Below, piece by piece: positions 2,011 to 13,120 of a DNA stretch of 64,000 bases (its first letter is position 1; every line of letters starts with the position of its first letter). Source of the DNA: Desulfobacteraceae bacterium (GTDB taxonomy: Bacteria > Desulfobacterota > Desulfobacteria > Desulfobacterales > Desulfosalsimonadaceae). The position numbers and the translations under genes were made by a program. Under the pieces are notes generated by a model. That model saw only the letters and a list, made by a program, of their open reading frames with translations, was not told the origin of the DNA and made no database searches. The stretch spans positions 124,001 through 188,000 of the forward strand of contig QZKW01000089.1 of the NCBI GenBank assembly GCA_003599885.1. Reading direction: 5' to 3'.

Positions 2011-3243
2011 TTATCCCCACGGAGATGGCCGATCATTGAGCATTTCAATAAATGCTTCCATGCGGGTTTTGATCTGACCATCGGCAAACGACCGGTGATC
2101 GATGCAGTCCACTTCCAGATTCAGCACCGGCACGCCCATCTCCTTTAGCCCTTCGGTGATCAACCCTTTTGAGCCGGTTCCCTGGCGGCATCCCCAGTTG
2201 CAGGGATTGATCGCCCCGTCGATTTTATAATCTTTCGCGAGTTTTTTGAGATGGTCAATTCTATGGGTCGCCTGCCCGTTAAACGGGATGGAAATGGCCC
2301 GTCTGGCAATGCCGGTATAGGGATCATCCGGATCAATTTCATCCCAGGTGATGTCATTTAATTCATCAATCACGACCACCGCGCCGAATTCTTTTTCCAG
2401 CATGTCCACCAGGGGATTTTTAAACTGGATCCGGTTCTGGATCCACATCAGGCGGAGTTTTTCCTCTTTTGATCCGCTGATGCCGTTTTTTACGCGGTTT
2501 TTAAATTCATCCAGGTAAGCCTGCGCCACTTCCACCGCCGCGTCCGATCCCAGGAGCAGGGCCATGACAATGCCGAAGTTGGCCAGCATTTTCCCGTCCG
2601 TGGGGGAAGGGGTCTGTTTCGCCAGTTCATAGGTTTCTGCGATGAGCTTTCTGGCCTGGTTGGTCCGGATGACGGCAGCTCTTAATTTTTCTTCGTCAAG
2701 AGGTTGTCCGGTATGATCGGAGACAAATGTCACCATTTGCCGGATCTGGTCAGCCAGATAGCGGATGCCGGCAGCTGACTGCTGCTGGGGGATATTCAAC
2801 ACAAACAGGTCTTTGTTAAAATGTGCGGCCATATTTTCCATCACGGCAATGCCGCCGGAACACGGGCAGGTGGTGCCGATCAAAAAGTCCGGTTCCGGCA
2901 TCAGGCCTTTGCGGGTCGCGCCCAGGATCGCCCGGTGATACCCGCAGATGTCCGAAGCAAAACCGGCGTGTTCGGCTTCTTCCAGGAATTCCGTCGACAG
3001 GCCGGTTGACGCCAGCATGGCCCCGATGAATTCAACAAAACAGGAGGTAACGTTCATGGCGGACAAAATGTCAAATGGGGCGGCTATCCCGCACCAGGCC
3101 ACCCGGTTTTCCCCGGAATACAGGCGGCTGCCCAGCTTTGCGATCTCAAGAGCATACAGTTTTCTCGGGCTTTTATTGTCCGGAGCCGCTGCCAGTGAGG
3201 CTTCAATCCCGGCCACCAGATCGTTAAAATAGTGTTTCATCAT
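2011..3243 (-). CDS. 2-hydroxyacyl-CoA dehydratase / benzoyl-CoA reductase family subunit
   Basis: A 410-residue protein of the HgdB/FldB/BcrB-like family, whose members hold [4Fe-4S] (or double-cubane) clusters in enzymes that eliminate water from 2-hydroxyacyl-CoA or reduce aromatic-CoA rings. Candidate cluster cysteines are in VAWCGIAAPFD, TTCPCSGG and NPCNWGCRQG, with a further Cys in LEVDCIDHR. The C-terminal GQIKTRMEAFIEML matches the end of its partner, marking paralogous subunits. ATG codons occur at 3243 and 3240; GAGGTGA upstream fits either. It starts 4 bp after the stop of the upstream partner. The substrate cannot be told from the sequence. Confidence 0.82.
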   Translation of the reverse strand: MMKHYFNDLVAGIEASLAAAPDNKSPRKLYALEIAKLGSRLYSGENRVAWCGIAAPFDILSAMNVTSCFVEFIGAMLASTGLSTEFLEEAEHAGFASDICGYHRAILGATRKGLMPEPDFLIGTTCPCSGGIAVMENMAAHFNKDLFVLNIPQQQSAAGIRYLADQIRQMVTFVSDHTGQPLDEEKLRAAVIRTNQARKLIAETYELAKQTPSPTDGKMLANFGIVMALLLGSDAAVEVAQAYLDEFKNRVKNGISGSKEEKLRLMWIQNRIQFKNPLVDMLEKEFGAVVVIDELNDITWDEIDPDDPYTGIARRAISIPFNGQATHRIDHLKKLAKDYKIDGAINPCNWGCRQGTGSKGLITEGLKEMGVPVLNLEVDCIDHRSFADGQIKTRMEAFIEMLNDRPSPWG

Positions 3244-3247
3244 GGGT

Positions 3248-4315
3248 TCACCTCAACATTTCAATAAAGGCTTCGATTCGGGTTTTCTGCTGTCCGATGG
3301 ACCGGAGGGAGCAGTCTCCTTCCAGCAGAAGCAACGGCATTCCGGCGTTTTTCAAGGCTTCCCGGATAAACGGAAGGCGTTCCAGATAAGGGTCGCAGAA
3401 TTTGACGGTATGTCCGATAACCCCCAGCGCTTGAGCCGCTTTCGCGTTATTTAAAACATCTTCAGCGATCTTTCCGGGACGGGCCGGATCAAAGGTCCTG
3501 GCGCAGGGCTGCCGCGTGAGCAGGGCTTCCGCCATGCGGGAAAACACATCCCCGGCATCATCATCCGCAATCGGCGCAAACATCCGGCTGCCGGTGCAAA
3601 AATCATCATTCATGATCGCGGCTCCGCAGGATTCGATCATCTCAAACGCTTCCGGGTCCGGCATGACATTGCCGAACAGAAACACCGGCACCCCTTTATT
3701 TTTTGGCGCATCACTATCCGGCGCATCCTGAAGCTGTTTTAAGCGGACCAGGGTGTCGTCAAAAGGGCTGGTGGCCGCCTGATTATAGATTTTCTGGAGA
3801 GCCGCCGTGCCGCCGTCAAGCCTGCCCTGGCGGAACTTTTGGGCGATTTGCACAAGCAGTCCGGATATTTCATTGTATTTATCAATGCTGGCGGCGATGG
3901 CTTCCGGCTCAATCTTTTTCCCTCGCCAATCCGCCAGTGCATCCGCAGCCCTTACCAGCTCGTCCCTGAAAAAGGATATGGAAAGGCTGTCGGCGGTTGC
4001 CGGCAGGTCTATTAAGATGGTGCGGCCGTTTTTGCGGGTATCAATTTTGTGGATATCAATCCACGCGTCCGCCATCCGGCGCATGGCGTCACAGCTGTTG
4101 ATGAAAACGGCTCCGGCAAGGTCCGGCAAATCGCCGCTCATGGCCCGGTCAAGAATCCGCTTGATGTGGGGGCAGAGATTGTCATGGAGCAACTGGCCGG
4201 CCTGGTCGGGAAAGTCGCCGACCGGCAGGATGCGAAACGGCGCATAACCGGCCGCGTCTATCAGGGGCAGGGGAGTATACGCGCAGGCGAAACCGATGTT
4301 TTCTTTGGGTTCCAT
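3248..4315 (-). CDS. 2-hydroxyacyl-CoA dehydratase-like partner subunit
   Basis: A 355-residue paralogue of the following gene. Family features are YTPLPLIDAAGYAPFRI near the N terminus, then DNLCPHIK and NSCDAMRR, with later Cys in VKFCDPYLER and LEGDCSLR. A two-gene, two-subunit layout is typical of hydroxyacyl-CoA dehydratases. The ATP-dependent activator (HgdC/FldI type, Walker A with a CxxC/GCG cluster motif) is not in this window and would have to be elsewhere. AAGGA lies 7 nt before the ATG. The operon promoter must lie in the short gap shared with the divergent gene at 4392. Confidence 0.8.
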   Translation of the reverse strand: MEPKENIGFACAYTPLPLIDAAGYAPFRILPVGDFPDQAGQLLHDNLCPHIKRILDRAMSGDLPDLAGAVFINSCDAMRRMADAWIDIHKIDTRKNGRTILIDLPATADSLSISFFRDELVRAADALADWRGKKIEPEAIAASIDKYNEISGLLVQIAQKFRQGRLDGGTAALQKIYNQAATSPFDDTLVRLKQLQDAPDSDAPKNKGVPVFLFGNVMPDPEAFEMIESCGAAIMNDDFCTGSRMFAPIADDDAGDVFSRMAEALLTRQPCARTFDPARPGKIAEDVLNNAKAAQALGVIGHTVKFCDPYLERLPFIREALKNAGMPLLLLEGDCSLRSIGQQKTRIEAFIEMLR

Positions 4316-5523: not shown

Positions 5524-5553
5524 GGCAGGGCTTTAAGCCCTGCCTGTTTTTTT
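5524..5553 (+). terminator. Rho-independent terminator
   Basis: GGCAGGGC (5524-5531) pairs with GCCCTGCC (5537-5544) around TTTAA, followed by seven T from 5547. It ends the 5172-5483 transcript. The stop codon of the convergent DUF1295 gene (5533-5535) lies inside the loop. Confidence 0.85.
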
Positions 5554-6330
5554 GGGAAACCAGGGAATAAATGCGCTGGTTTGCCGGATATATTGCTGGT
5601 ATTCGGGATTATCTGAAAACTGGGTTTCCTCCATAAGCGTCACCCCGGTCAGTTTCAAGAGCGTATAGGTGATCAGCAAAGGGCTGATTATGGTCCAGAA
5701 TCCCCAGGGCGTTGACAGGACAATCACAAACAGCCCCCACCAGATCAGGGTTTCGCCGAAATAATTGGGATGCCGGCTGTATTTCCAGAGCTTCTGGTTC
5801 ATGATTTTGTCCTTGTTTGCCGGGTCAGATAGAAATTGCTTCAATTGCTGGTCCGCAAAAGATTCGATGATGATTCCGGCCGTCCAAATCAACAATCCCA
5901 GAATATCCGTCAGGGTCAGAAGCGCCGGTTCCGCTGACATTTGTCCATACTGGATGCCGAGAGCAATGATCCACTGGAATAGCGCCTGAATTAAAAAAAC
6001 TTTGAACAGGCTGATGATCCAGAATGATTTTCCGTGCTTTTCCCGCCACTTGCCGTAACGGGGATCTTCGCCCTTGCCCCGGTTGCGGGAACTTAAATGA
6101 ATAAAAAGGCGCAGCCCCCATAATGTGACCAGTATCGTTATCATCAGCTTTCGAAGCAAAAACCCGTCGGTCCGGAAAAACGTCAGCCAGGCAATCAGGA
6201 CAAATCCCAGTCCCCACAAGCTGTCCGCGATGGTGACGTCCTTTTTGATCAGGCTGAAGACCCAGCCGATACTCATCAAACCGGCGGCGGCAAAGAGGTT
6301 GACCAAGAACAGATTCAAAAAAGCGTCCAT
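5533..6330 (-). CDS. DUF1295 membrane protein (steroid 5-alpha-reductase / ICMT-like fold)
   Basis: 265 residues with about seven hydrophobic segments. The family hallmark SRHPNYFGE lies near residue 185, matching the NADPH-binding end of steroid 5-alpha reductases and isoprenylcysteine methyltransferases; KYSRHPNYFGETLIWWG is highly typical of DUF1295. Likely an inner-membrane lipid-modifying reductase or methyltransferase; substrate unknown. It is the last gene of a minus-strand run with the GPH transporter (21 bp upstream) and the chalcone-isomerase-like gene. Its presence beside cyclopropane-synthase-like and DUF1365 genes supports a role in fatty-acyl or sterol-like modification (inference). 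Confidence 0.85.
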   Translation of the reverse strand: MDAFLNLFLVNLFAAAGLMSIGWVFSLIKKDVTIADSLWGLGFVLIAWLTFFRTDGFLLRKLMITILVTLWGLRLFIHLSSRNRGKGEDPRYGKWREKHGKSFWIISLFKVFLIQALFQWIIALGIQYGQMSAEPALLTLTDILGLLIWTAGIIIESFADQQLKQFLSDPANKDKIMNQKLWKYSRHPNYFGETLIWWGLFVIVLSTPWGFWTIISPLLITYTLLKLTGVTLMEETQFSDNPEYQQYIRQTSAFIPWFPKKTGRA

Positions 6331-6351
6331 GTGGTTGCTCTCCTTTCAAAA

Positions 6352-7740
6352 TCACCGGAGCATCCGGGAGGGTTCAAGGGGATCGGAAACCGTTTCCCCG
6401 GCAGACTTTCTATCGATGGCATCCCTGATATTTCGATGGACAGCGCCGGTGATGGGATAGGCAAACGCGATGACAATGGCGACCGCATTGCAAAGGCAGG
6501 GCACCAGCGCGTAAAGAATCCGCAAATAAAGAACAACCGCATCGGTCTGCCGGACATTGGGCACATAGCCGGAAGCCCCCAGCAGGGCAAGTCCTGCTCC
6601 GACCCCAAAAGCGGCCGCCATTTTTTTGGCGACGGACCAGAGCCCGATATAAAGTCCTTCCCTCCGCTCACCGCTGATGAGTTCGTCATAGTCGATCACA
6701 TCGGCCTGAATGGCTGACGGGATGGCAAGGGTGGCCCCAAAACCGATTCCGGAGATAAATATTAATACGCCGTAGGCAAGTTCATCTCCTGGCCCGAGAA
6801 AAAAAACCCCTGAAAATGCGCCGGTATTGACCGCCATGGATATCAGCCACATGGATTTTTTTTCAAATCGTTTGGCCCCCGCAACCCACAAGGGGAGAAA
6901 AAGGATGCCGGTCACAAAATACATCACCAGAAAAAAATCCGCCCGGCTGGAATGAAGCACATATTCGACATAATAGAGAATGAGCGTGGCCGGAAGATTG
7001 TTGCCGATGGCGCTGATGGTGTAGGAGATGAGCAGAATTCGGAAGGGCCGGTTCCGCAGGCTGGCCGACAGGTTTTGAAAAATGTTGTCCCGACTGGCAA
7101 TCACGTTTAAAGCGCGTTCCTTAAGGGTCAGCACGCACCAGAAGGCCGAAGCAATAATCAGCGGCGTATAAATTATCGAAAGGATGAAAAAAGTTTCGCG
7201 CTCCCCCTGGGGGCTCTCAGGCAAAGACATCAATGCTTTAATTGCTGCCGGAGAGGCGGCGGCAACCAGCGTGCCGGCAATCAGCGCACCATCGCGCAAT
7301 CCAAACAAGGTTGTCCGCTCATTATAGTCAAAGGTCAGTTCCGGCCCCAGGGATTCATAGGGCACGATGATCACCGTCCAGAATAAAAACAGCAAAAAAA
7401 TAAGCACCATGAACCATGCTGTGGCTGTATCGGCATCGGTATGGGGCGGATTGAACAGCAGGAGGATGGCGAGTCCTGTCAAGAGTGCCCCCAGAATGAT
7501 CAGGGGGCGTCTCCGGCCGAAGGGGGTTCTGAGCCGGTCTGAAATCAGACCGATGGCCGGGTCCGTCACTGCGTCAAACAGGCGGACCACCAAAAGAATG
7601 ACGCCCATGGCCGATACGTGGACACCGATGACGTCCGTATAGAATTTCGGGATATAGACATAAACCGGTATGCCCACCACCGCCAGCGCAAAGGCCGGTG
7701 CGGCGTAAGCCAGTTTTTCGCTCCATGTGAGTTTTTTCAT
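6352..7740 (-). CDS. MFS transporter of the glycoside-pentoside-hexuronide (GPH/MelB-like) family
   Basis: 462 residues and twelve predicted membrane segments. The family motif DAVTDPAIGLISDRLRTPFG is followed by RRRP in the loop between helices 2 and 3, and the central loop carries LKERALNV. GPH members are cation symporters for sugars, but many with this neighbourhood are annotated only as putative sugar transporters. The gene sits in a lipid-modification block, with the chalcone-isomerase-like gene 2 bp upstream. A lipid or lipid-head-group substrate is therefore possible; this is inference. Confidence 0.85.
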   Translation of the reverse strand: MKKLTWSEKLAYAAPAFALAVVGIPVYVYIPKFYTDVIGVHVSAMGVILLVVRLFDAVTDPAIGLISDRLRTPFGRRRPLIILGALLTGLAILLLFNPPHTDADTATAWFMVLIFLLFLFWTVIIVPYESLGPELTFDYNERTTLFGLRDGALIAGTLVAAASPAAIKALMSLPESPQGERETFFILSIIYTPLIIASAFWCVLTLKERALNVIASRDNIFQNLSASLRNRPFRILLISYTISAIGNNLPATLILYYVEYVLHSSRADFFLVMYFVTGILFLPLWVAGAKRFEKKSMWLISMAVNTGAFSGVFFLGPGDELAYGVLIFISGIGFGATLAIPSAIQADVIDYDELISGERREGLYIGLWSVAKKMAAAFGVGAGLALLGASGYVPNVRQTDAVVLYLRILYALVPCLCNAVAIVIAFAYPITGAVHRNIRDAIDRKSAGETVSDPLEPSRMLR

Positions 7741-7742
7741 GG

Positions 7743-8306
7743 TCAGTCTTTCCCTAAAAGATGGTCCCTGAATCCTTTATCAATGGGGTTATCCCCGAGC
7801 CAGATGCCAAAATAGGCTGCCGCATAATCCACACCGGGGACAATCCCCAGGGGTTTTCCGTTTAACGCAAGTTCCGTTCCAACGCCGGGCAAATAGGTCG
7901 CCGCATACCGGTCCCCCGGTTTGACATCCCGGTAAAGGGCGTTCATTTGCGCAATTTGCGGGCCAAGGCGGATTCTCTCTTGGGGAGTCAGATTTTCTTC
8001 AATCAAGGTCCGGGTCGATTCGGCGAAATCAGCCGCTGATATCGCATGAAAATAATGAAGTTCCAGCCGTTTCGGCACGTCATTGAAGATCTGATCCGCC
8101 TTCTGATTCTTATCCAGATAAAGGGCGCCCACATATGCCTTGATGAACACCATATACCGAAGCAGAGCGACACCCCGCAAAGATAGGGTTTTCTCCTGTG
8201 CGGTGTAGCTTTCTTTAAATTCGACCCCTTCAATCATGGCCGTATCAGCGCGGGTTGCCCCAAGGAGCAGTATAAATAAAACATATACCAGTCGATTCAT
8301 GCGCAT
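7743..8306 (-). CDS. Chalcone-isomerase-like periplasmic protein
   Basis: 187 residues with a signal peptide (hydrophobic core VYVLFILLLGATRA, cleavage probably after ADTA). The mature part matches the bacterial chalcone-isomerase-like (CHI-fold) family: GVEFKESYTA, RYMVFIKAYVGALYLDK, and the terminal WLGDNPIDKGFRDHLLG. Bacterial members are not shown to be flavonoid enzymes; related plant proteins bind fatty acids, so a periplasmic lipid-binding role is plausible. It is the first gene of a run with the GPH transporter and DUF1295, divergent from DUF2177. Confidence 0.82.
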   Translation of the reverse strand: MRMNRLVYVLFILLLGATRADTAMIEGVEFKESYTAQEKTLSLRGVALLRYMVFIKAYVGALYLDKNQKADQIFNDVPKRLELHYFHAISAADFAESTRTLIEENLTPQERIRLGPQIAQMNALYRDVKPGDRYAATYLPGVGTELALNGKPLGIVPGVDYAAAYFGIWLGDNPIDKGFRDHLLGKD

Positions 8307-8317
8307 CGGATTCCCTC

Positions 8318-8345
8318 TTGACCTGTGTTAAAGTTTATATATACT
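8318..8345 (+). promoter_or_regulatory. Promoter for the DUF2177 gene
   Basis: TTGACC at 8318-8323, a 16-bp spacer, and TATACT at 8340-8345. It lies in the 91-bp gap between the divergent chalcone-isomerase-like and DUF2177 genes. Predicted start of transcription is near 8352. Confidence 0.5.
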
Positions 8346-8397
8346 TGAAAAAATGCAATATATCCATCATTAAAATCCTGTAAACGAGGAGTACGCC

Positions 8398-8832
8398 ATG
8401 CAATACTTCCTGTCATCCGTTTTTTTAAAAGTAGCAGGCCTTTCCGTCATCATTTTTGTCATACTGGATCTGTTATGGCTTTCCGTGGTCGCCCGGGGGA
8501 TCTATTTTAAGCACATGGGGTATCTCGCGGTCATTGAAAACGGCCGGATCATGTTCAACCTCCCCGTGGGTCTTTCGGTTCAGGTCATTATCGCGCTGGG
8601 GCTTGCGGTCTTTGTGTCGCTGGCGCTTCTTGTTCAAAACACCCTGGGAACCGCCATTGTCATGGGCGTTTTTTCAGGGTTTGTGCTTTATTGCACCTAT
8701 GATCTCACCAACCTGTCGTTTGTCAGGGGCTACCCGGTTGCCATTACGGTTATCGACATCCTTTGGGGCACGGCCCAGGGTCTTTTTTCCGGGATTTATG
8801 TTTTTTATCTCACCCGGTATTTTTCTTCGTGA
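8398..8832 (+). CDS. DUF2177 family membrane protein
   Basis: 144 residues with four hydrophobic segments and no signal peptide cleavage site. Family features include DLLWLSVVARGIYFKHMG in the first third, TYDLTNLSFV around residue 100, and VIDILWGTAQG near the end. The ribosome site GAGGAG precedes ATG 8398. It is the only gene in the 5533-12126 block on the plus strand, and it converges on DUF1365 with 13 bp between stops. DUF2177 proteins recur beside cyclopropane-synthase/FAD-oxidoreductase/DUF1365 clusters in other proteobacteria; the function is unknown. Confidence 0.85.
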   Translation: MQYFLSSVFLKVAGLSVIIFVILDLLWLSVVARGIYFKHMGYLAVIENGRIMFNLPVGLSVQVIIALGLAVFVSLALLVQNTLGTAIVMGVFSGFVLYCTYDLTNLSFVRGYPVAITVIDILWGTAQGLFSGIYVFYLTRYFSS

Positions 8833-8845
8833 CCGCGCATAACCC

Positions 8846-9619
8846 TTAACCCGTTTTTTTGATGGTCATGGGACTGATGGGCTCCGGTTTGGGGTGGTAT
8901 TTCATGTGTTTCTGAAAATACAGCCGGGCCGCTTCCATAAAAATCCGGGGTTTTGTGAGATACGGGATTGCCGGATGCCGAAGAACTGCTTTGAGCTGAC
9001 TGGCGGCGGTCAGCGGCAATGGTTTCCCCCACAACCGCGCGGTAAAAACTTCGGAACCCTCCCGCACCAGCTTGATGTTGATATCTAAATCGCCATTTAT
9101 GCGCGAAAAGGAAAATTCGTATTCGCCTTCCAGGTTGTTAAACGGCGACACATGAAAGGCTTTTGTGGCGTAATACGGCCTATCCGTGTCCGCATCCCCG
9201 TCTTTTTGTCTGGGGAGATAGAGGTGGCGTTCGCCGAATGTGTTGTTGACCTCCACTGCCATGCGGACAATATCGCCCTGGTGATTGAGGCAATAATAAA
9301 AGCTGACCGGGTTAAACGCATAATTGAAATACCGGGCGGAGGTGATGAGGAAAACAGACGCAACCGGAACATCTGAGCCGTCGGCAGCCAGAAAGGATAT
9401 CAGTTTTTCTTTAATGGAACCGGGCCGTGGGTCCAGATAGTCGGCATCATGGAGGGAAACCGGACGAAAGCGGTTATAACCAAACAGCGGCAGGCTCTGG
9501 TCCAGTCCGGTCAGTTCATCCAGATCAAAGCCATAGACATAGAGCGGGTAGCGGAATTCATGGCGCACCGGCTGGAAACGGGTATGCTCGACAAAGCCTG
9601 AAAACAGCTTTGATTTCAT
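8846..9619 (-). CDS. DUF1365 domain protein
   Basis: 257 residues, close to family length. Diagnostic motifs are TRFQPVRHEFRYPLY near the start, FNPVSFYYC in the middle, VNNTFGERHLY and KAFHVSPF. DUF1365 genes nearly always accompany an FAD-dependent oxidoreductase and a cyclopropane-fatty-acid-synthase-like gene, as here. The start overlaps the stop of the FAD oxidoreductase by 4 bp, so translation is coupled. The biochemical activity is not established; it is assumed to act on membrane fatty acyl chains with its neighbours. Confidence 0.9.
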   Translation of the reverse strand: MKSKLFSGFVEHTRFQPVRHEFRYPLYVYGFDLDELTGLDQSLPLFGYNRFRPVSLHDADYLDPRPGSIKEKLISFLAADGSDVPVASVFLITSARYFNYAFNPVSFYYCLNHQGDIVRMAVEVNNTFGERHLYLPRQKDGDADTDRPYYATKAFHVSPFNNLEGEYEFSFSRINGDLDINIKLVREGSEVFTARLWGKPLPLTAASQLKAVLRHPAIPYLTKPRIFMEAARLYFQKHMKYHPKPEPISPMTIKKTG

Positions 9620-10878
9620 AACTGTATCCCGAATTTGACGCCGATATTGACGGCTGAAGACACCGCATCTTCGTGAAACCCATACCGGAAATAACTGCCG
9701 CAGAAATAGGTGTTCCGGATACCGTTTAAACTGTCCAGATCCTGCTGGGTCCGGATGGATTCAAATGAATACTGGGGATGGGTATAATTAAATTCGGCGA
9801 TCATGGCCGAATCCATGATCCGGCTTGCGGGATTTAATGTAACGCAATAATCCGAATGGGTCTGTAAACTCTGTAGGAGGTTCATGTAATAGGTCATGGT
9901 CATGGGAGACGACTCGGAATCATTGTTCTCCCGGATGTAATTCCAGGATGCCCGGGCGCGGTTCAGCGGAGGGAGAAAGGCTGGATCACGGTGCAGAATC
10001 GTCCGGTTTTGCGTATACCGCCAGGGTGAGAGAAGTTTTTCTTCCGCAGGAGAAGGATCTGCGAGCATCCCCAATGCCTCATCCGCGTGCGCGGCGATCA
10101 CAACCGCATCAAAAATTTCCTCGCTGTTTCCCAGATGAAGCTTTATTTTCCCCTCTTCACGGCTGATTTTCAGCACCGGCGCGTTTGAAAACACGCTTCC
10201 GGAAAAATTTTTCAAAAATGCATCCACATAACTGCGGCTGCCGCCTTTGATGGTGTACCACTGGGGCTGATCCGTTACGGCCAGCAAGCCGTGGTTTTCA
10301 AAAAATTTTGCAAACGTCCGGGCCGGAAAATCCATCATCTGATTGTCCGGTGTTGACCAGATGGCCGCTCCCATGGGGATGATATATTGCCGGATAAACG
10401 TTTTATTAAACCCATTTTTGTTCAGGTACTGCCCCAGCGTCATGTCCCCCAGGCTGCTTTCGGAAAGGGCCTTTACGGTCAGCCGGTTGAACCGGAGGAT
10501 ATCTGCAAGAAACCGCCAGAAGGAAAGGGAAAAAAGGTTTTTTCGGTCGGCAAAGGGCGCGGCGCTGGAATACTGGAACCCGGTGCGGCGGTCAAAATAT
10601 GAAAACGACATGGGGCATTTGACCCGTTCCACGCCCAGCTGACTGATGAATTTGATGAAATTGGGATAGGTCCGGTCGTTGTGCACAATGAACCCGGTGT
10701 CCACCGGCGTGCCTGCGTCCGGTCCATCCGGGATGTCCACCGTATGGGTGTGGCCGCCGATATAGTCGTTTTTTTCAAAAAGGGAGACCTGATGCTTTCG
10801 GCCAAGGAGGTGGGCCGCCACGATACCCGCAACGCCGCCCCCGACAACGGCAATGTTTAATTCGGATGATGTTTGCAT
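9616..10878 (-). CDS. FAD-dependent oxidoreductase (amine-oxidase/desaturase-like fold)
   Basis: 420 residues. The N terminus carries the Rossmann FAD motif VVGGGVAGIVAAHLL, followed by SLFEKNDYIGGHTHTV, typical of the phytoene-desaturase/amine-oxidase flavoprotein superfamily. The C-terminal FCGSYFRYGFHEDAVSSA places the second flavin contact. Members beside DUF1365 and cyclopropane-synthase-like genes are candidates for oxidising or desaturating lipid acyl chains; the substrate here is unknown. It lies 21 bp after the synthase-like gene and overlaps DUF1365 by 4 bp, so the three form one operon. Confidence 0.88.
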   Translation of the reverse strand: MQTSSELNIAVVGGGVAGIVAAHLLGRKHQVSLFEKNDYIGGHTHTVDIPDGPDAGTPVDTGFIVHNDRTYPNFIKFISQLGVERVKCPMSFSYFDRRTGFQYSSAAPFADRKNLFSLSFWRFLADILRFNRLTVKALSESSLGDMTLGQYLNKNGFNKTFIRQYIIPMGAAIWSTPDNQMMDFPARTFAKFFENHGLLAVTDQPQWYTIKGGSRSYVDAFLKNFSGSVFSNAPVLKISREEGKIKLHLGNSEEIFDAVVIAAHADEALGMLADPSPAEEKLLSPWRYTQNRTILHRDPAFLPPLNRARASWNYIRENNDSESSPMTMTYYMNLLQSLQTHSDYCVTLNPASRIMDSAMIAEFNYTHPQYSFESIRTQQDLDSLNGIRNTYFCGSYFRYGFHEDAVSSAVNIGVKFGIQL

Positions 10879-10899
10879 GGGGTTCCTGCCTTTTAAAGA

Positions 10900-12126
10900 T
10901 TATTTATACATAAATTCCCTGTCCATTGGATAACTATTTGTATTTCCTTTTGAAAAAGTGATCTGATAGAGCCGGAGCACCGTATTTTCCGTGCGGAAAT
11001 ATTCGGCACAGAAATGGAGATAGGCCCGCCAGGTTCTCCGGAACTTTTCATTAAAGCGGTCCGGGTCATATTGGTGGATGGCATTCCATTTATCGTCAAA
11101 GTTCTGCGCCCAGGCATCCAGAGTCAGGGCGTAGTGGCGGCGGAGGTTTTCAATGTCCAGTATTTCAAGGCCGTGTTTTGCCATGATTTCGATGGTTTCG
11201 GCAAGGCCTGGCAGATATCCGCCCGGAAAGATGTGCTTCCGGATAAAGAAATCCGTTTCCATGGACAGGTCGTGGGCGATAAAATGCAGCACGCCGACGC
11301 CGCCGGTCTTCAGGCATTTCGCCATGCTTTGGATCCAGTCGGTGAGCTGGCCTTTGCCCGCATGCTCATAGACGCCCAGTGATGCATATTTGTCATAAAC
11401 CCCCTCCACCTGCCGGAAATCTTTTTCCTGAATGGTGATTTTATCCGCCAGCCCTTTTTCCCTCGCTTTTTGAACCAGCCACCGGTTCTGGTCGACGGTG
11501 GGACTTAGATTCGTCGCTGTCACCCCATATTTTTCGACGGCATGAAACAACAGGGAACCCCATCCCCCGCCCACGTCAATCAGTCGCTCGCCGGGCTTGA
11601 GCCTGAGTTTGCGGCACACATGATCCAGCTTGTTTTCCTGGGCTTCCTTAAGCGTCCGGGTGCCGTTTTTCCAGTAAGCGCAGGTGTATGTCATGCTGGG
11701 GTCCAGATACTGCCAGAAGATTTCTGACCCCCGATTATAATGGAACAAGGCGTTTTTGACGGCCTGGGGTAAATTCCGGTTGCCGTAGCGGATTTCATGC
11801 CAGAAATTTCGGATGCGGATCAACGGGTGCGGAATCCGAAGCTGCACGGTGTTTTCGATAAGGGAAGGTCCGGTATCTGCCGATATCTGGACAAGAAGCT
11901 TCAGATTGCCGTCGATATCCACATCCTGATTGATATAGGATTCGGTCAGCCCCCATCCACTATGGAGCATCGTGTTGATCTCCGCCAGCCTGGATTTATA
12001 TCGAATGGTGACTTGCGGGTGTTCGTCTCTGTTGCGGTACATTGTGCCGTTGGTAAAAATGACCTCAAAGGGAATGGCGGAATTCCCCCAGTTGGATTTG
12101 AAAAAAGCTTTTAGAAGTCGGGACAT
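10900..12126 (-). CDS. Cyclopropane-fatty-acyl-phospholipid synthase family methyltransferase
   Basis: 408 residues. A lipid-binding N-terminal part of about 120 residues precedes a SAM-dependent methyltransferase domain with motif I LIDVGGGWGSLLFHAVEKYG around residue 190. Family features YDRGSE-like HYNRGSEIFWQYLD, MTYTCAYW and the later YEHAGKGQLTDW and HFIAHDLSME are present. Cfa enzymes methylenate or methylate unsaturated acyl chains of phospholipids at the membrane. It heads the operon with the FAD oxidoreductase and DUF1365. The ribosome site GGCAGGAG precedes ATG 12126. Whether it makes cyclopropane, methyl-branched or other chains cannot be told. Confidence 0.9.
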   Translation of the reverse strand: MSRLLKAFFKSNWGNSAIPFEVIFTNGTMYRNRDEHPQVTIRYKSRLAEINTMLHSGWGLTESYINQDVDIDGNLKLLVQISADTGPSLIENTVQLRIPHPLIRIRNFWHEIRYGNRNLPQAVKNALFHYNRGSEIFWQYLDPSMTYTCAYWKNGTRTLKEAQENKLDHVCRKLRLKPGERLIDVGGGWGSLLFHAVEKYGVTATNLSPTVDQNRWLVQKAREKGLADKITIQEKDFRQVEGVYDKYASLGVYEHAGKGQLTDWIQSMAKCLKTGGVGVLHFIAHDLSMETDFFIRKHIFPGGYLPGLAETIEIMAKHGLEILDIENLRRHYALTLDAWAQNFDDKWNAIHQYDPDRFNEKFRRTWRAYLHFCAEYFRTENTVLRLYQITFSKGNTNSYPMDREFMYK

Positions 12127-12440
12127 GATTCTCCTGCCGTGAATGGAAAGACCGAATTAAAAAACAACTACAGAATTCTCTATTTATCTATAGCCTATCT
12201 GTCCGAGCCGTTTCAAGGGGTTTAACAGTTCTATGAATAATCATTGCTCAGATTAGGGGCATGGATTGCTTTGTCTTATAGTATTTTTCGGAAGGAAATG
12301 AAACAATTTTCCGGCGGTGGGCTCCCCCCACCGGAAGTGTAAGGCTTTTTTCCCCAATATTTGAAATCAATCGTCCTTTCCCTTGCAGAAGTCATGAAAA
12401 AGGAGTATTGTTTCATGAAAAGATAAAGAGAGGTAGGGCT
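12127..12440. other. Intergenic region between the Cfa-like gene and the toxin-antitoxin pair
   Basis: No gene is seen. It holds an imperfect hairpin at 12309-12336 (TTCCGG-GGTGGG against CCCACCGGAA, one bulge) and, further right, the toxin-antitoxin promoter. The left part must hold the divergent Cfa promoter, which I could not place with confidence. Confidence 0.5.
12383..12421 (+). promoter_or_regulatory. Toxin-antitoxin promoter with two direct repeats
   Basis: TTGCAG at 12383-12388, a 17-bp spacer and TATTGT at 12406-12411. TCATGAAAA occurs at 12392-12400 and again at 12413-12421, exactly 21 bp apart, so both copies face the same side of the helix and flank the -10. This is a good candidate operator for autoregulation by the ribbon-helix-helix antitoxin. 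Confidence 0.5.
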
Positions 12441-12713
12441 ATGGCTAATTTACAGATTAAAGGGATTTCCAGTGAATTTTACGACCAGATAAAGGACATG
12501 GCTGAGGCTGAAAACCGGTCTGTCAGTCAGCAGGTGTTGTATTTGATCAAGGAACATATGGCGAAGGGCAAAGCAGTGAAAGCCATAAAAACACCGGCCC
12601 AGGTTTTGCTGGAGCTGGCTGGATCATGGTCGGATGCGAGAGATGCCGAGGAAATCGTGATGGAGTTGAAAAAGGGCCGGTCGAATTCTAAAAAATTATC
12701 CGCAGGTTTTTAA
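12441..12713 (+). CDS. Ribbon-helix-helix antitoxin (VapB/FitA-like)
   Basis: 90 residues from ATG 12441, preceded by GAGAGGTAG. The N-terminal half MANLQIKGISSEFYDQIKD then NRSVSQQVLYLIKEHM has the strand-helix-helix pattern of FitA/Arc-type DNA-binding antitoxins. The C-terminal tail (residues about 50-90) is expected to wrap the toxin. The stop overlaps the toxin start in TAATG, so synthesis is coupled. It should neutralise the PIN RNase and repress the shared promoter. Confidence 0.82.
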   Translation: MANLQIKGISSEFYDQIKDMAEAENRSVSQQVLYLIKEHMAKGKAVKAIKTPAQVLLELAGSWSDARDAEEIVMELKKGRSNSKKLSAGF

Positions 12714-13120
12714 TGTACCTTCTTGATACGGACATCATCATTTATTCCTTAAAGGGAAATCAGGCAGTTGTCAGAAACTTACAACGGCATTTGAATGATC
12801 CCCTGCATATCAGCGCCGTCACGTTGATGGAATTATATTATGGCGCGTATAAATCCAGCCAGGTCGAAAGCAATCTGGCAAAGGTCAAGGCCATCGAAAG
12901 TTCAATGGATATCGTTCCGGTCAGTCAGGGCCTGGTGGAGATTTTTGGGTTGTTAAAATCAAATCTTGAAAAAACCGGTACGCCGCTGGATGATTTTGAT
13001 CTGGTTCTTGGAGCCACGGCCCTTTCCCGGAATCTGGTATTGGTGACGAATAACACAAAACATTTTCAGAGAATCAACGGGTTGAAAATGGAAAACTGGT
13101 CCCAGGAATCTTTCCTCTGA
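12713..13120 (+). CDS. PIN-domain toxin (VapC-like RNase)
   Basis: 135 residues, normal for VapC. The acidic metal site is intact: LLDTDIIIY at the N terminus, the MELYYGAY glutamate near residue 40, and D in PLDDFDLVLGATAL about residue 100, followed by LVLVTNNTKHFQRI, typical of the family end. VapC toxins cut specific tRNA or rRNA sites and stop translation. Nothing suggests decay, in contrast to the truncated PIN gene at 18902-18991. Confidence 0.88.
   Translation: MYLLDTDIIIYSLKGNQAVVRNLQRHLNDPLHISAVTLMELYYGAYKSSQVESNLAKVKAIESSMDIVPVSQGLVEIFGLLKSNLEKTGTPLDDFDLVLGATALSRNLVLVTNNTKHFQRINGLKMENWSQESFL

Follow-up and report, generated by a model that had tools for sequence, protein, structure and literature searches.

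A conserved variant of the UfaD-UfaO lipid cluster behind a methylase outside the UfaM clade in a dsrA-bearing Desulfobacteraceae bacterium

The window analyzed here is a 64,000-nucleotide stretch of contig QZKW01000089.1 (positions 124,001 to 188,000) from a Desulfobacteraceae bacterium (assembly GCA_003599885.1), and it carries a seven-gene cluster that is real and conserved, with a core of known kind in a variant form. The known kind is that of Rhodobacter sphaeroides, in which the methylase UfaM, the flavin adenine dinucleotide (FAD)-dependent desaturase UfaD, and the DUF1365 protein UfaO build a methyl-furan fatty acid on phospholipid (PMC7380195; here and below, statements on published systems draw on passages of the cited papers). 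We lean toward reading the window cluster as a variant of the furan-fatty-acid cluster with a substituted first enzyme, encoding an O2-contingent pathway to furan or related oxygenated acyl chains. The sharper puzzle is then the role of UfaD and UfaO when the preceding methylase is not UfaM. All seven open reading frames (ORFs) lie at 5533-12126 of the window in the arrangement that an earlier note on this DNA had described, and each passes the Pfam cut-off for the family that the note had named (CMAS, Amino_oxidase/NAD_binding_8, DUF1365, DUF2177, Chalcone_3, MFS_2, and DUF1295). The GPH transporter also exceeds the NCBIfam TIGR00792 cut-off (260.8 versus 231.35 bits). The genes are as follows.

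10900..12126, minus strand: predicted cyclopropane fatty acid (CFA)-type, S-adenosylmethionine (SAM)-dependent fatty-acyl methylase, not a UfaM orthologue (408 aa; CMAS 237.6 bits)
9616..10878, minus strand: UfaD-like FAD oxidoreductase, predicted fatty-acyl desaturase/dehydrogenase (420 aa; Amino_oxidase/NAD_binding_8)
8846..9619, minus strand: UfaO-like DUF1365 protein, predicted O2-using acyl oxygenase (257 aa; PF07103 240.5 bits, cut-off 25)
8398..8832, plus strand: DUF2177 membrane protein, accessory gene (144 aa; Pfam)
7743..8306, minus strand: chalcone-isomerase-like protein (Chalcone_3), accessory gene (187 aa; Pfam)
6352..7740, minus strand: GPH/MFS_2 transporter, accessory gene (462 aa; Pfam, TIGR00792)
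5533..6330, minus strand: DUF1295 membrane protein, accessory gene (265 aa; Pfam)

The first three genes form a tight run on the minus strand, with 21 bases between the CFA and FAD genes and a 4-base overlap between the FAD and DUF1365 genes. DUF2177, on the plus strand, converges on DUF1365 across 13 bases and diverges, across 91 bases, from the chalcone-isomerase-like gene, which opens a second minus-strand run that continues after 2 bases with the GPH transporter and after a further 21 bases with DUF1295.

Judged from sequence, the FAD and DUF1365 proteins of the window are homologues of UfaD and UfaO, so the core is of a known kind. Both the earlier note's description of a lipid-modification block and its lead toward furan fatty acids hold up. 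The UfaM, UfaD, and UfaO sequences of R. sphaeroides did not surface in our scans, and the placement of the window proteins with UfaD and UfaO for this reason rests on family, adjacency, and proxies. The FAD protein, which matches Amino_oxidase, NAD_binding_8, DAO, and HI0933_like in Pfam, is 40.4% identical to a Rhizobium homologue that itself lies in an rpoE-chrR cluster; the DUF1365 protein is 29% identical to the Rhizobium homologue from an rpoE-chrR cluster and keeps the residues that do not vary in alignments of 31 and 59 sequences. The predicted structure of the DUF1365 protein is confident (predicted local distance difference test score 95.4). A sequence search of the PDB with a DUF1365 profile returned nothing at E values up to 1, and Foldseek gave no match for the model at E ≤ 0.001 (best 0.032). 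With VIA-align, the best match was OlmO (Z 6.9, root mean square deviation 4.2, 126 aligned), and nitrobindin 2a13 gave Z 6.6 with a deviation of 4.6 over 132 aligned. The model could at most point to a lipocalin/nitrobindin-like barrel, and because these matches are middling we propose no cofactor. A related DUF1365 protein in locus L067 (8001-9167) carries a different C-terminal extension of ~130 aa, which we presume to resemble DUF1499. This longer frame was considered as a fusion remnant, and that idea was dropped because the tail, once read out, looks like another domain.

Conservation was assessed in a phylum sample of 395 genomes, 30 of which carry DUF1365 at 31 places (the window included), and in named loci taken as the best 80 of at least 588 confirmed in a scan of genomes from bacteria and archaea, many of these loci being cut by contig ends. 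At all 31 places in the phylum sample, a homologue of the FAD gene lies no more than 400 bases upstream of DUF1365, in the same orientation and in most cases touching it, and a CFA-type gene lies within the fetched stretch. Among the best 80 named loci, the FAD gene is just upstream of DUF1365 in 76 and a CFA-type gene is present in 77. This adjacency of UfaD- and UfaO-type genes (31/31 and 76/80) argues for the furan-type reading, and because FAD and CFA genes accompany DUF1365 at every place in the phylum sample, the association seen in the seven-gene block is more than chance. A search for synteny across Desulfobacterota, which had been set as a check, thus extends the gene pairing beyond a single strain. 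The other four genes are less constant companions of DUF1365: DUF1295 accompanies it at 18/31 phylum-sample places and in 34/80 of the best named loci, DUF2177 at 16/31 and 5/80, the chalcone-isomerase-like gene at 15/31 and 5/80, and the GPH transporter at 6/31 and 1/80. Genome G134, which belongs to the window's family and a different genus, has the complete set of seven families together in a single rearranged block (locus L051). The CFA-FAD-DUF1365 core is widespread, and the four other genes are companions, DUF1295 above all, rather than fixed parts. In the RSP1087-1091 operon of R. sphaeroides, the other three genes are dispensable for furan fatty acids (PMC7380195).

The variant element is the methylase. 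We compared residues at E. coli positions 139, 239, 266, 268, and 317 in 150 CFA-type sequences from the loci and three references, with pieces shorter than 230 aa excluded, and built a tree from a hand-chosen subset of 51 rows; the UfaM clade takes its name from the position of its genes beside ufaD-ufaO. The CFA-type sequences fall into three residue groups. The UfaM clade has Gln-Ile at 266/268 in 97/97 rows, and a second clade, FufM-like by inference, has His-Phe at the same positions in 48/48; 33 of its 47 rows besides that of Rhizobium are within 600 bases of DUF1295. The window methylase and three Desulfobacteraceae relatives have C-E-H-I-Y, as does E. coli CFA (C139, E239, H266, I268, Y317), to which the window methylase is 33% identical over 276 columns; it scores below the NCBIfam CFA equivalog cut-off (238.3 versus 400 bits). 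In the tree it is placed outside the UfaM clade (100/99) and within a 22-row Desulfobacterota CFA clade (100/98), where it forms a five-row subgroup (100/100) with L051, L061, L062, and L164. The last of these is from G333, a genome of the same genus in which the window-type CFA is present and DUF1365 is absent. The window methylase is the sole full-length CMAS match in its host genome. From these placements it is not a UfaM orthologue; rather, UfaM looks to have been lost and replaced, a case of non-orthologous replacement. Gln at position 266 has been reported earlier in cotton enzymes, in a paper that called the five residues strictly conserved in non-plant enzymes, and cotton enzymes with Gln and Ser at those active-site positions make cyclopropanes (PMC3132707). 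Because some enzymes with Gln266 do so, the active-site residues do not reveal the product of a methylase, and we rejected reading the product off these residues as proof.

The history of the cluster suggests how the replacement could have come about. A single ORF encodes both DUF1365 and a CFA-type methylase at 13/31 phylum-sample places and in 19/80 of the best named loci, and every fused CFA part included in the tree belongs to the UfaM clade. Such fusion ties the activities of UfaO and UfaM together. Examples are L037:9427-11412, L044:9434-11425, and L074:8001-9962, the last from a named strain, Desulfospira joergensenii DSM 10085; fusion-bearing records are titled Desulfobacterales, Kiritimatiellae, Omnitrophota, Salisediminibacterium, and others. 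The CFA part of the fused ORF is interrupted in L047, L057, and L058. No bacterial UfaO-UfaM fusion is named in the passages of the furan-pathway literature examined. In a joint UfaD and UfaO tree, which kept 101/111 loci after exclusion of pairs with short pieces, the window forms a clade with L051, L061, L062, and L067 (Shimodaira-Hasegawa approximate likelihood ratio test 99), and this clade is nested in a group of 34 rows, 26 fused and 8 unfused, whose remaining three unfused rows are L068 (its frame cut by a contig end), L081, and L083. We tested the fused rows of this group, which was named post hoc from the tree, under LG+G4 with L068 scored as fused. Forcing them into one clade was rejected by the approximately unbiased (AU) test both with L081 and L083 (44 rows, p-AU 6.7e-6) and without them (42 rows, p-AU 0.0036). 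The simplest account would be that the UfaM half of a fused protein was lost in the window lineage and that a CFA of the local kind was recruited. In the window and in L061, the window-type CFA gene lies upstream and points the same way; it is convergent in L051 and ~5.3 kb away in L062, and the 12.5-kb stretch of L067 shows no CFA gene. An NTF2/SnoaL-like gene, related to that of the Pseudoalteromonas cluster, directly follows the fused gene in four genomes of f42 and in some relatives (L044:11555, L047:11405, L049:11110, L050:5640, L052:11296, L063:9881, and L064:9989, with L052 and L064 being one contig).

We predict that the CFA-type methylase would act on phospholipid acyl chains, adding a SAM-derived one-carbon unit at a mid-chain double bond, a step that would need no O2. 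The UfaD-like flavoprotein could then desaturate the chain beside the added carbon, probably in an O2-dependent step, and the UfaO-like DUF1365 protein could insert an O2-derived oxygen to give a furan or a closely related oxygenated acyl chain. In R. sphaeroides, O2 supplies the furan oxygen, and no UfaD product was seen when O2 was lacking (PMC7380195). An anoxic cell might thus store the modified precursor, and the arrival of O2 would convert it to a radical-scavenging lipid. The activities, substrates, products, and timing proposed in this scheme are our reading of the homology, synteny, and host oxidase genes described here.

The earlier note had framed the host as an anaerobe and the cluster as acyl modification without O2. 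The host does carry dsrA (full-length, 619 bits against a cut-off of 392.85), and because the gene is full-length the host is probably a sulfate reducer, with the qualification that dsrAB can also run oxidatively. The other part of that premise is weak, as a cox operon and cydAB are also there. The operon encodes DOMON, SCO1, CoxA, Cox3 (Pfam), CoxB, and a CtaB-like protein; CoxA (543 aa, 642.9 bits) is just below its NCBIfam cut-off of 670.75, CoxB is above its cut-off (171.8 versus 147.7 bits), and the CtaB-like gene is below its own. CydA and CydB (cytochrome bd) are encoded as well. Besides the full COX1 match on contig C16, two partial COX1 matches with near-equal scores lie at contig ends C22 and C67 (bases 8-628), perhaps a second oxidase gene split by the assembly. 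The host can probably reduce O2, which makes O2-using tailoring plausible in it, and with both the cox operon and cydAB present the UfaO step would be possible when O2 arrives. O2 reductases are known in sulfate reducers (PMC4383621, PMC11451228). The original puzzle is partly dissolved by these reductases, and the idea of an unknown flavoprotein system in a strictly O2-free host was rejected in view of the cox and cyd genes. The haem-copper oxidase family PF00115 is present in 18/30 cluster genomes versus 122/365 others (Fisher p = 0.005, kinship ignored). Within family f1, PF00115 is found in the cluster-bearing host and G134 and not in G333, which is without DUF1365 (n = 3).

Several observations weigh against an O2-contingent furan pathway in the window. 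The PF00115 family includes nitric oxide reductases, and the copies that were typed are those of the host and G134. Cytochrome bd is not enriched (15/30 cluster genomes versus 204/365 others, p = 0.57, kinship again ignored), and 8/30 cluster genomes have neither PF00115 nor PF01654. These eight (G069, G131, G160, G167, G251, G257, G272, and G392) are drafts of 90-99% estimated completeness, three have dsrA over the cut-off, and for them the no-O2 puzzle does stand. Dehalococcoides, a genus described as strictly anaerobic (PMC10772276), is reported to contain furan fatty acids (White 2005, via citing papers including PMC6222795), which argues against O2 being strictly required in all lineages. 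On the enzyme side, with no R. sphaeroides sequences among the scan results, the proxy for UfaO is the Rhizobium DUF1365 protein at 29% identity, and the exclusion of the window methylase from the UfaM clade means that its product may not suit UfaD. In searches of an open-access library, which lacks most subscription papers, we recognized none that describes such lipids from sulfate reducers; the papers examined there by passage cite furan fatty acids for Dehalococcoides only.

The replaced methylase could instead be a true cyclopropane synthase, with UfaD and UfaO modifying the cyclopropane chain to, for example, a cyclopropene or an oxygenated ring-opened chain, a new lipid rather than a methyl-furan. 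We consider this unlikely, although it accommodates the C-E-H-I-Y residues that the window methylase shares with E. coli CFA, versus the Gln at the His266 position throughout the UfaM clade, and the placement of such a CFA gene beside or within ~5.3 kb of ufaD-ufaO in four loci and three arrangements (window/L061, L051, and L062). In plants, moreover, a UfaD-like domain is fused to a cyclopropane-making enzyme, and this domain has been proposed to take part in the desaturation that yields sterculic acid (PMC3132707). The residues, however, do not fix the product, as the cotton enzymes illustrate, and CFAs beside a presumed TmpA-like flavoprotein, which are perhaps methylene-forming, are also C-E-H-I-Y. 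In addition, the window-type CFA occurs without the cluster in G333, and L067, of the same UfaD/UfaO clade, lacks a CFA gene in its stretch. A fuller version, which we hold with still less conviction, is that the furan pathway was rewired in this lineage of probable sulfate reducers: the methylase half of the fused UfaO-UfaM disappeared, its place was filled by a cyclopropane-type methylase from a different clade, and UfaD and UfaO would now act on a cyclopropane (or exo-methylene) chain to produce an acyl modification undescribed in bacteria, its precursor made under anoxia and completed with O2.

It is rather improbable that the CFA gene encodes nothing more than a housekeeping cyclopropane synthase, with UfaD and UfaO using another substrate or surviving as relics. 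The occurrence of a window-type CFA without DUF1365 in same-genus G333, the opposite orientation of the CFA gene in G134, and its distance of ~5.3 kb in L062 are all consistent with such independence. Against it, the CFA and FAD genes share a strand with gaps of 21 bases in the window and 42 in L061, all frames are open, the invariant DUF1365 residues are retained, and the host has no other full CMAS match. The alternative to which we give the least weight is O2-independent use, in which UfaD would pass electrons to a quinone or other acceptor and the lipid made by the cluster, whether methyl-branched, a diene, or even a furan, would form without O2. The eight cluster genomes with neither PF00115 nor PF01654, five of which have the UfaO-UfaM fusion, fit this alternative, as do the report from Dehalococcoides and the UfaD-UfaO pair in a metagenome-assembled genome of the Dehalococcoidia (L083:4552-8795), where CFA, FufM-like CFA, UfaD-like, and DUF1365 genes stand in a row. 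Those genomes are drafts, however, the difference between fused and unfused forms is not significant (p = 0.21), the window host has both oxidase families, and the characterized UfaO uses O2 (PMC7380195).

Of the described systems close to the window cluster, the ufaM-ufaD-ufaO furan pathway of R. sphaeroides and Rhodopseudomonas palustris (PMC7380195) shares with it a UfaD gene directly before UfaO, a methylase alongside, and accessory genes; ufaM, ufaD, and ufaO are also side by side in Halomonas (PMC12089945). The window cluster differs in that its methylase is outside the UfaM clade, RpoE-ChrR (a neighbour of some furan clusters and no defining part) is not adjacent, and its host carries dsrA and no second (FufM-like) methylase. 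The tmpBA operon for 10-methylpalmitate, found in Desulfobacter and others, also has a CFA-type methylase beside a flavoprotein in a Desulfobacterota host, but TmpA is described as geranylgeranyl-reductase-like (PMC7791843), whereas the window flavoprotein is UfaD-like. Proxy queries with two presumed TmpA-like flavoproteins matched nothing in the window's first 20 kb, and we rejected the window as a tmp operon for want of a TmpA-like neighbour. In 3/20 Desulfobacterota stretches (L176:4449-6763, L180:3740-7143, and L183:4628-6809), a CFA-type methylase lies beside a FAD_binding_3/DAO-type flavoprotein; we take these pairs as TmpBA-like, and L183 is in G134, away from the ufa cluster of that genome. 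The bfaAB operon for 10-methylstearate in actinobacteria likewise combines a CFA-type methylase with a flavoprotein, BfaA, which is described as belonging to another family (PMC7791843) than the Amino_oxidase/NAD_binding_8/DAO/HI0933_like protein of the window. Plant cyclopropane synthases and UFAMD proteins (PMC3132707, PMC10940516) resemble the window in joining a UfaD-like domain to a CFA-type methylase, and Arabidopsis has a single protein resembling both UfaM and UfaD (PMC10940516). In plants these are one protein, whereas the window has separate genes, and in its bacterial relatives it is UfaO rather than UfaD that is joined to the methylase.

The likeness to proteobacterial clusters that the earlier note pointed to is confirmed: such clusters include L141 and L142, with RpoE-ChrR, and L142 also has a photolyase. 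Over the first 20 kb, the part of the window that was scanned, single-sequence searches found no homologue of an extracytoplasmic function (ECF) sigma factor, ChrR, or photolyase, so that within this part the note was right that neither a sigma factor nor a photolyase is adjacent. Such an absence is common: reference plasmids apart, sigma factor and ChrR occur together in 2/110 loci and photolyase in 5/110 (single-sequence search), which makes it unremarkable in the window. A loose RpoE-style promoter pattern gave 23 matches versus 22.75 expected. Near the cluster, at 2011-4315 of the window, are genes for two neighbouring HGD-D (2-hydroxyglutaryl-CoA dehydratase D-component) proteins. Beside it, at 12408-13120, is a pair of small ORFs, perhaps a toxin-antitoxin system, of which one is ribbon-helix-helix-like (RHH_5, 24.4 bits, just below the cut-off of 26) and its partner is PIN-like by eye.

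An O2-using membrane-lipid pathway, characterized in alphaproteobacteria under photo-oxidative stress, would thus now extend to a dsrA-bearing bacterium and to little-studied lineages. The fused UfaO-UfaM relatives and the Gln in place of His266 across the UfaM clade could serve as handles on the chemistry of DUF1365 and UfaM. The window cluster itself offers a clean test of whether chains made by a cyclopropane-type methylase can serve UfaD and UfaO as substrates, and of when anaerobes may make furan lipids.

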